From NCBI GenBank assembly GCA_029210875.1, contig JARGFJ010000016.1:13108-48810 (forward strand): a DNA stretch of 35,703 nt. The letters are read 5' to 3'. Source of the stretch: Gammaproteobacteria bacterium. Its GTDB lineage: Bacteria > Pseudomonadota > Gammaproteobacteria > Nitrosococcales > Methylophagaceae. The position numbers and the translations under genes are program-made. This document shows positions 26,848 to 28,659 of the stretch, piece by piece (within the stretch, counting starts at the first letter, position 1; every line of letters begins with the position of its first letter). Below the pieces are notes generated by a model, which was not told the origin of the DNA, ran no database searches, and saw only the letters and a list, made by a program, of their open reading frames with translations.

Positions 26848-27120
26848 ATGGCTAATCTCAAGAAGTTTCTTGCAGAAAATGAACAATTGATTCATTCCAA
26901 AATGAAAAAAGTTGAATCACACGTTCAACGACAGGTTGATAATTGGGTGCAAAATACGATTTTAATTGAAGAGTGTGATATTCCATTTAAATACAAACGC
27001 CAAAAAAAATATAAATCACTTCAGGGAGCGCGAGTGGATATCATTTATTACCCCAGCCATGAAGACATAGCAGGTATCTCTTTTGACTATATGAAAGTGA
27101 TAAAAATCAATTTATCCTAA
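26848..27120 (+). CDS. Small protein of unknown function
   Basis: Not recognised. 90 aa, soluble, basic (many Lys), with a helical N-terminal half (LKKFLAENEQLIHSKMKKVESHVQRQVDNW) and a probable beta C-terminal half (ARVDIIYYPSHEDIAGISFDYMKVIKIN). No signal peptide. It starts 8 nt after the transglycosylase stop and precedes the VF530 gene by 29 nt, so it looks part of the same run. Confidence 0.65.
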   Translation: MANLKKFLAENEQLIHSKMKKVESHVQRQVDNWVQNTILIEECDIPFKYKRQKKYKSLQGARVDIIYYPSHEDIAGISFDYMKVIKINLS

Positions 27121-27149: not shown

Positions 27150-27371
27150 ATGAACAATTTTCAACACAAAAACCCACTTCATGGGCATACATTAGAAAGT
27201 ATATTGATCGCATTGGTCGAATTCTATGGCTGGGAAGGTCTCGGACGCCATATTGACATTCGTTGCTTTAATCAAAACCCATCAATCAAATCGAGCCTTA
27301 AATTTCTACGTAAAACGGAATGGGCAAGAAGAAAAGTTGAAGATTTGTTTATTGATATGCAAAAGCCCTAA
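27150..27371 (+). CDS. VF530 (DUF2132) family protein
   Basis: 73 aa. [33 protein letters not shown] and [24 protein letters not shown] match the VF530 family, small DNA-binding-fold proteins of unknown role, at full length. The next gene's proposed ATT start lies 17 nt downstream. Confidence 0.9.
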
Positions 27372-27380
27372 TACATCGGG

Positions 27381-28183
27381 AGTAGACTATTAGAAAAATT
27401 AGCATTTTAGGTAGCGGCTGGTTAGGCAAACCCCTTGCTCAACATTTTGCCAACAGCGGTTTTATAGTCTCTTTATCAACTCGATCACCAAACAAAATTG
27501 AGTCATTAGCATCTGACAACATCACGTCCTATCTTGTTGATATCGATAATATCACTGCTGACAGTGCTGATTTTCTTAATTCTGACACGCTGATTATCGC
27601 TATTACCTCCAAGAATATTAAAGCCTATCAAAACCTGATTGCTTATATTGAACGAGCACCGATAAAATACCTTATTTTTATCAGCTCTTCTTCCGTTTAT
27701 AAAACAACAAATGACATCGTGACTGAACAGTCAAACGATGAAAATGCAGAGAGTGTATTGCTACAAATAGAAACGTTGTTTAGAGCTAATCCCAATTTCA
27801 CAACGACTATCCTTCGATTAAGTGGTCTGGTTGGTTATAGTCGACATCCGGGAAATTTCTTTGCTAATGGCAAGCTGGTTCAACACGCTGATGCACCAGT
27901 TAATTTAATCCATCAAGATGACTGTATTGGCATCATCGACGCGATTATTAACCAAGATGAATGGGGTGAGGTATTTAATGCTTGTGCCGACACCCATCCC
28001 ACCAAACGCCTTTTTTATAGTCATGCCAGAGCCTTGCTTGGTTCGGCTGCACCTAGTTTAAGTTTCGCTGACACCAATGAATTAGAATTTAAAATCGTCA
28101 GCAATAATAAAGTCAAACAACAGTTAAATTATCAGTTTATCTATCCTGATGTTATGACCATTCCGTTTGGTAGCGGTGCATGA
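27381..28183 (+). CDS. YeeZ-like NAD(P)-binding Rossmann/epimerase protein with probable ATT start
   Basis: Extended-SDR-like protein; the coding part begins at 27389 (interval given here includes the ribosome-binding region). The open frame runs from a TAG at 27383 through 28183 with no ATG, GTG or TTG before the nucleotide-binding motif; the first standard start, GTG 27719, would delete it. Starting at ATT 27389 gives 264 aa beginning (M)RKISILGSGWLGKPLAQHF, matching the GxGWLG Rossmann start of YeeZ-type proteins. GGGAG at 27378-27382 lies 6 nt before the ATT. Later come LIFISSSSVY (extended-SDR active-site strand), the TTILRLSGLVG segment and VNLIHQDDC. The reaction is unknown. The stop overlaps the ychJ-like ATG by 4 nt. 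A one-base change of ATG to ATT is the alternative to a true ATT start. Confidence 0.82.
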
Positions 28184-28659
28184 CAATGCAAAAGAGTGTT
28201 AAGGATTTATGCCCATGTAACAGTGGCAGCAGTTATTCAGCCTGTTGTCAGCCATTACACACCGGAACAGTAGCGGCGAGCAGTGCTGAACAATTAATGC
28301 GCTCGCGTTACAGCGCATTTTGTTTAAAAAATGCACCCTACCTAATTGCGACCTTACACCCTGATTATCGTAGTGCCGATGATCAACAAAGCCTCGCAGA
28401 ACTGTTTGAACAAACACAGTGGTTAGGTTTAAAAGTCATTTCACATAAATCTAAAAATAACACTGCCACTGTTGAATTTTCAGCGTTTTATCAAGATGCA
28501 AATCAGGTAGCTCAGCTTCATGAACGGTCACGATTTGTCAAAATTGAAAACCGTTGGTTCTACCAAGATGGTGACTTACTTCCACCCATCACATTAGCTC
28601 GTAATGACAGCTGTTTTTGTGGCAGTGGCATTAAATACAAAAAATGCCACGGTCGCTAG
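28180..28659 (+). CDS. YchJ-family SEC-C motif protein
   Basis: 159 aa. The N-terminal CPCNSGSSYSACC and C-terminal CFCGSGIKYKKCHGR are the paired cysteine SEC-C motifs of the YchJ/UPF0225 family, expected to bind zinc, with AEQLMRSRYSAFCLKNAPYL in between. Function unknown. The ATG overlaps the preceding stop (ATGA), so it is translationally coupled. No clear terminator follows in the 100-nt gap to the convergent cysB-like gene. Confidence 0.9.
   Translation: MTMQKSVKDLCPCNSGSSYSACCQPLHTGTVAASSAEQLMRSRYSAFCLKNAPYLIATLHPDYRSADDQQSLAELFEQTQWLGLKVISHKSKNNTATVEFSAFYQDANQVAQLHERSRFVKIENRWFYQDGDLLPPITLARNDSCFCGSGIKYKKCHGR

Follow-up and report, generated by a model that had tools for sequence, protein, structure and literature searches.

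How is translation begun on a gene whose reading frame holds no ATG, GTG or TTG ahead of its nucleotide-binding motif? This question is raised by the gene of an NAD(P)-binding Rossmann protein on the forward strand of the window, by which we mean the whole stretch of 35,703 nucleotides that was analysed, from a genome of 2.44 Mb in 93 contigs that belongs to the same family as Methylophaga. The only candidate in sight is an ATT codon, and starts at AUU, AUC or AUA (AUH from here on) are very rare.

The ATT codon at 27389..27391 lies seven codons ahead of the first G of GSGWLG. Reading from it, AGA AAA ATT AGC ATT TTA GGT AGC GGC TGG TTA GGC follows, which gives RKISILGSGWLG, and the frame stays open up to the TGA at 28181-28183, for a gene (27389..28183, forward strand) of 264 codons plus stop. 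A Shine-Dalgarno (SD) sequence, GGGAG, is found at 27378..27382 on the same strand, separated from ATT by the 6-nt spacer TAGACT. The original prediction rested on this GGGAG 6 nt before ATT and on the lack of any ATG, GTG or TTG before the nucleotide-binding motif, and direct reading confirms both points, with one refinement: against the textbook anti-SD the paired core is GGAG (27379-27382) and not GGGAG beginning at G 27378, which leaves the spacing unchanged. Over the 20 nt upstream, the duplex with the anti-SD amounts to -6.9 kcal/mol. Because an in-frame TAG at 27383..27385 (forward strand) closes the frame upstream, there can be no canonical start ahead of the Rossmann motif, and the earliest in-frame ATG, GTG or TTG in the list of open reading frames is GTG 27719, 110 codons downstream of ATT. 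The gene has 29 Ile codons in frame, and ATT 27389 has the strongest SD of them all (-6.9 versus a median of +0.2 kcal/mol for the others). As codon and SD also recur in relatives, their combination is more than chance.

The gene upstream, encoding a VF530 protein (27150..27371, forward strand), has its stop codon 17 nt ahead of ATT. Further upstream, a 90-aa ORF at 26848-27120 is without a Pfam or NCBIfam match, and in Methylophaga loci 92-aa ORFs resembling it precede the Rossmann-protein gene. Rfam returned three chance-level matches at the locus, all under their gathering scores, and thus no structured RNA; a promoter scan found 6 sites where 6.5 were expected.

What would be lost if translation began at GTG 27719 instead, as the original prediction allowed for? 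Pfam assigns the protein to NAD_binding_10 (32.9 bits, cut-off 27.2) and Epimerase (25.7, cut-off 20.9), and an AlphaFold2 model built from 31 sequences has a pLDDT of 93.0, with residues 2-6 forming the first strand, beta-1. In this confident model the N-terminal 109 codons would make up half of the Rossmann fold, and a protein begun at GTG 27719 would be predicted to go without that half, including beta-1 and the G7-S-G-W-L-G12 motif that is invariant in an alignment of 26 relatives. Furthermore, a comparison of the window genome with the sister species, an independent genome (G004) with 87% protein identity, gives a dN/dS of 0.24 over the 109 sense codons that follow the start and 0.25 over the remainder. 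A start at GTG 27719 would thus delete a stretch that is under the same constraint as the rest of the protein, which speaks against it.

The closest folds found by Foldseek were 3ius (TM 0.77) and 3gpi (TM 0.75), which are also matched by profile (E 7.5e-9 and 7.7e-18, respectively); both are SDR-like proteins of unknown function with about 20% identity to the window protein. Classical SDRs carry a catalytic Tyr-xxx-Lys pair after an SSxxVY strand. No conserved Y-x3-K was seen by eye between alignment columns 103 and 145 in the 26 relatives, and the expected place reads S-x-L-x-QIE. The protein therefore has the Rossmann fold and glycine-rich motif of an extended or atypical SDR and falls outside the classical catalytic SDRs, and because the classical pair is not conserved we call it atypical. 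It probably binds NAD(P), as an atypical SDR that might act as a sensor or a non-classical enzyme. Two other identities were rejected: TIGR01777 (YfcH) scored 29.8 bits, under its curated cut-off of 207.35, and the gene is not infC, which lies elsewhere in the genome (G000:C30), while the window protein matches NAD_binding_10. With the gene found in only 9 of 369 gammaproteobacterial genomes (E <= 1e-30), its presence across the class is patchy.

In every fetched locus, codons were read from the upstream in-frame stop to GSGWLG, and a start was counted as AUH where no ATG, GTG or TTG occurred within 16 codons and ATT, ATC or ATA stood seven codons before the motif (position -7). Forty members of the family have a parsed start, of which 16 are AUH by this rule and 24 are ATG, TTG or GTG. 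The 16 consist of the window, its sister, which has the same ATT codon and the same letters of SD and in-frame TAG, and 14 of the 22 gene-carrying genomes of the genus Methylophaga (g3). In the window, the sister and many Methylophaga, the frame is closed by a stop 1-3 codons ahead of the start codon. Three genomes, G037, G042 and G050, were counted as canonical by the rule, since they carry either TTG at -14 or ATG at -9. Of these, G037 is in effect a fifteenth AUH case in g3, as its sole canonical codon, the TTG at -14, has an SD of -2.4 versus -6.0 for ATT. In G042 and G050, an ATG stands two codons before the ATT, and AAGGA is separated by a single base from the ATG but by seven from the ATT, a spacing that fits ATT better than ATG (L155 and L030, respectively). 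ATG starts are found in more distant Methylophaga copies (G039, G040, G044, G048 and G055) and elsewhere in the genus of the window (g1), where 14 relatives with a parsed start use it. Since many relatives use ATG, TTG or GTG, AUH cannot be essential to the gene. Where AUH does occur it is always at codon -7, while the canonical starts within the family are scattered from -5 to -14. In one count of AUH starts, the third base gives ATT 12 times, ATC 5 times and ATA 4 times.

The named loci, taken as the best 80 of 486 confirmed ones, break down into 68 with a nearby canonical start, 10 whose only candidate is AUH, one with neither (L086) and one that lacks the motif (L111; the motif was likewise not parsed in L119). 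The 10 AUH-only loci include two that are not MAG records, Methylophaga aminisulfidivorans MP (L046) and Methylophaga sp. OBS4 (L043). Named relatives from the Methylophaga family are L036, L040, L043, L045, L046 and L048. Of these, L045 (G006:C38) is a Methylophaga-like copy on a short contig, in a bin of another genus and at the same coordinates, and probably represents contamination; as a near-copy of L028 it was left out of the 64-row tree, the SD comparison and the Ile-codon ranking described below. Close relatives of the gene also turned up in MAG contigs assigned to Desulfobulbaceae and Chloroflexi (L047, L049 and L053), by gene transfer or mis-binning, and many of the Bacteroidota orthologues among L055-L110 start with TTG instead of ATG.

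The distribution of AUH over the tree is clustered. In one Methylophaga clade (clade A; support 98/86 in a 64-row tree and 99/90 in a 68-row tree), 12 of 12 species have AUH at the homologous codon, 8 as ATT and 4 as ATC, and none has ATG. Outside the family, the gene is carried by 13 of 41 genomes of a second gammaproteobacterial family, f155, and seven of these 13 have AUH at -7 (ATA in six, ATC in one), where the duplex energy is -10.6 kcal/mol in five, -7.2 in one and -6.4 in another. A canonical start occupies the same -7 codon in the remaining six (TTG 3, ATG 2, GTG 1), with energies of -5.8 to +0.4 kcal/mol. Family f67 has the gene in one of three genomes, with ATC at the start (L116). 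The seven AUH members of f155 form one clade (100/100). In the 64-row tree, AUH needs 8 changes, 6 of which are forced by well-supported branches; in the 68-row tree, to which f155 was added (26 of 68 rows AUH) and from which L044, L050 and L052 (same contigs as L198, L199 and L201) and the long or unplaced rows L118, L086, L109 and L096 were omitted, it needs 8 changes with 4 forced. These counts indicate that AUH is clustered without having a single origin, with transfer, losses and gains inseparable.

AUH starts are accompanied by stronger SDs. The median duplex energy is -7.1 kcal/mol for AUH (n=21) versus -3.1 kcal/mol for canonical starts (n=42; Mann-Whitney p 2.8e-9), and within the family -7.1 for 16 AUH versus -3.0 for 24 canonical starts (p 1.6e-7), where the p-values overstate independence, the rows being related, and are not to be taken as true probabilities. 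Canonical rows were scored by the best of their nearby starts, a bias that works against finding the stronger SD at AUH. When the in-frame Ile codons of each gene are ranked, the best SD belongs to the codon at -7 in 15 of 24 genes, and in 23 of the 24 this codon comes third or better. Two AUH cases have a moderate SD, L051 (-5.1, its start ranking sixth of 30) and L015 (-5.6). Together with the reading of the frame, these results show what is seen in starts of the infC kind: AUH as the sole possible start of a conserved frame, a strong and well-spaced SD, and conservation of the codon across all 12 species of clade A and in 7 of 13 f155 carriers, if not universally.

Is AUH then a habit of these genomes in general? 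For infC itself, the start is ATC in all 19 family genomes read, and over the infC loci (L120-L149) an ATC or ATT start is legible in 28 of 30 (26 ATC, 2 ATT; the exceptions are G068 and G073). In the family, the AUC of infC follows a TAGAGGA-like sequence and is closely preceded by a TAG in frame, an arrangement that resembles that of the window gene. A further candidate, pcnB, was rejected as a second AUH gene in this family, because of the 20 out of 30 loci that could be parsed by motif (one was cut at a contig edge) 19 have ATG. The gene ychJ (28180..28659, forward strand), whose ATG shares bases with the TGA that ends the ATT gene, adjoins the SDR gene in 30 of 40 family loci, and in all 30 of them its start is canonical. 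With ychJ canonical and pcnB at ATG, AUH is specific to infC and the SDR gene among the genes checked. In clade A and B loci of Methylophaga that have ychJ, the overlap with the SDR gene is 1-11 nt, G045 being the exception with a gap of 53. As the SD of ychJ itself is mostly weak (-6.6 to +0.7), the two genes are probably coupled in translation; some relatives with a canonical start are without ychJ next door. A special initiator tRNA was also considered and rejected: a pattern allowing any base at one anticodon position plus 3 mismatches, outside of which very different tRNAs would fall, has one match in the genome, with anticodon CAT.

Three other explanations must be taken into account. 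The AUH start could be real yet neutral, or merely tolerated, with the strong SD offsetting a poor codon and no regulation depending on it. Compensation of this kind has been described genome-wide for GUG and UUG in a survey (PMC5622118), and the canonical starts of many relatives fit it. On the other hand, codon -7 has stayed AUH throughout clade A while its third base was swapped between T and C without ever giving ATG, and the same survey has switches to AUG as more frequent than switches away from it, although the third-base changes are too few for a firm test. We regard neutrality as quite possible on this evidence, if short of probable.

A second explanation holds that the Ile codon is internal, and that its frame is entered from an upstream one by a programmed frameshift or by readthrough. 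This would account for the exchange among ATT, ATC and ATA without ATG, and some genomes do have short out-of-frame ORFs with a canonical start that run up to or across the site, that in the window being 55 codons long and lying inside the VF530 gene. However, such ORFs vary in length and frame between lineages, the 55-codon ORF of the window is not shared by Methylophaga, and 6 of the 22 loci have no ORF with a canonical start over the site in either of the other frames. In all 12 clade A Methylophaga, moreover, the upstream gene is divergent and 99-120 nt away, the five clade B loci have their long upstream open frame on the minus strand, and the stop just upstream in the window, the sister and many Methylophaga closes the frame itself. 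With no shared translated frame leading into the site, a frameshift or readthrough is strongly disfavoured as a general explanation, and we hold it to be very improbable.

Least credible, and very unlikely, is a recent mutation from ATG to ATT or a base error, leaving a pseudogene or a product from GTG 27719, an alternative that the original prediction had raised: the ATG of the 14 same-genus relatives and the availability of that GTG would fit it, but the same ATT and SD are present in the sister species, the N-terminal part is constrained and its removal would cut the Rossmann fold, Methylophaga and the second family, f155, again have ATT, ATC or ATA at the homologous position, and base error is refuted by the sister together with isolate genomes, M. 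aminisulfidivorans included. Nor do relatives all have ATG, which was one part of what was to have overturned a true ATT start; AUH recurs among them, next to many with ATG or TTG. The prediction of a true ATT start with a well-placed SD is thus borne out by position, frame, the sister genome and recurrence in relatives.

We conclude that the gene is very probably initiated at AUU 27389, in what looks like an evolved arrangement for a weak start, comparable to infC. It is comparison between genomes that argues for the codon, its spacing, the strength of the SD, the absence of alternative starts and the constraint on the N-terminus. In such an arrangement, the strong and well-spaced SD would hold the 30S subunit at AUU 27389, where the ordinary initiator tRNA with its CAU anticodon would start despite an unpaired third base. 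IF3 may discriminate against this AUU as it does at infC, keeping the protein low and tying it to the level of IF3 or to initiation fidelity, and ychJ, overlapping the end of the SDR gene, would be set by the same initiation step. AUH combined with a strong SD is probably an old, evolved feature of the gene family in Methylophagaceae and other gammaproteobacteria. Since AUU pairs at two bases only with CAU, and IF3 acts against such starts, the AUH start probably limits expression of the atypical SDR and probably makes it sensitive to IF3; the original suggestion that the ATT limits expression or responds to IF3 is therefore plausible.

How does this compare with known cases? IF3 represses AUH-type starts (PMC5472188), and infC, with AUU in E. 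coli and AUC in Streptomyces, has such a start in common with the window gene; infC encodes an initiation factor and the window gene does not, and therefore has no autoregulatory loop. In Staphylococcus aureus, the ordinary genes cvfC1 (AUU) and ccpN (AUA) have conserved non-canonical starts with a strong or extended SD, and AUU and AUA reporters with strong SDs reach about 10% of AUG in poor medium, with ccpN attaining as much as 30% when the medium is rich (PMC13009471). These are unrelated Firmicutes genes, proven by ribosome profiling and reporters, where the case for the window gene is made by comparison only. The Streptomyces sigma factor gene sigR starts with GTC in 32 of 34 species and GTT in the other two, behind a strong SD, AGGAGGTG, and is repressed by IF3 (PMC5472188); GUC is not AUH, but a kept non-canonical codon with a strong SD is what we see here as well. 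In Borrelia pncA, overlooking the AUU start leaves a truncated protein in the databases; this gene is described for a single lineage, with no conservation across families in the text available, unlike the window gene (PMC13398362). The pcnB gene of E. coli has, going by the title of a reference, an AUU start that limits expression, whereas it has ATG in the window's family. Lastly, the survey mentioned above lists one switch to AUU among 61,358 ancestral AUG starts (PMC5622118). Conserved non-canonical starts with strong SDs are already known in cvfC1, ccpN, sigR and infC, and what stands out in the SDR gene is the recurrence of AUH in more than one family, together with natural AUG, UUG and GUG counterparts. 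A literature search, mostly of records without full texts, found no paper on this SDR gene or on AUH starts in Methylophaga.

What may this mean for the family? We tentatively propose, as an idea that is rather doubtful in its full form, that the SDR gene is an ancient gene under IF3 gating outside infC, coupled in Methylophagaceae to the ychJ that follows it. AUH would then be ancestral to Methylophagaceae and maintained by selection against AUG, so that the NAD(P)-binding protein would rise when initiation fidelity or IF3 falls. An ancestral AUH is hinted at by the scatter of the canonical starts, as if these had been gained separately, and by the relic-like ATT or ATA at -7 behind newer-looking ATGs at -9 or -8 in G050 (L030), G042 (L155) and G032 (L016). 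For annotation, gene finders restricted to ATG, GTG and TTG would lose the first 110 codons of the gene in the window, and with them the nucleotide-binding half. For the biology of these bacteria, the SDR gene provides a ready-made system for testing whether weak starts are selected as regulators.
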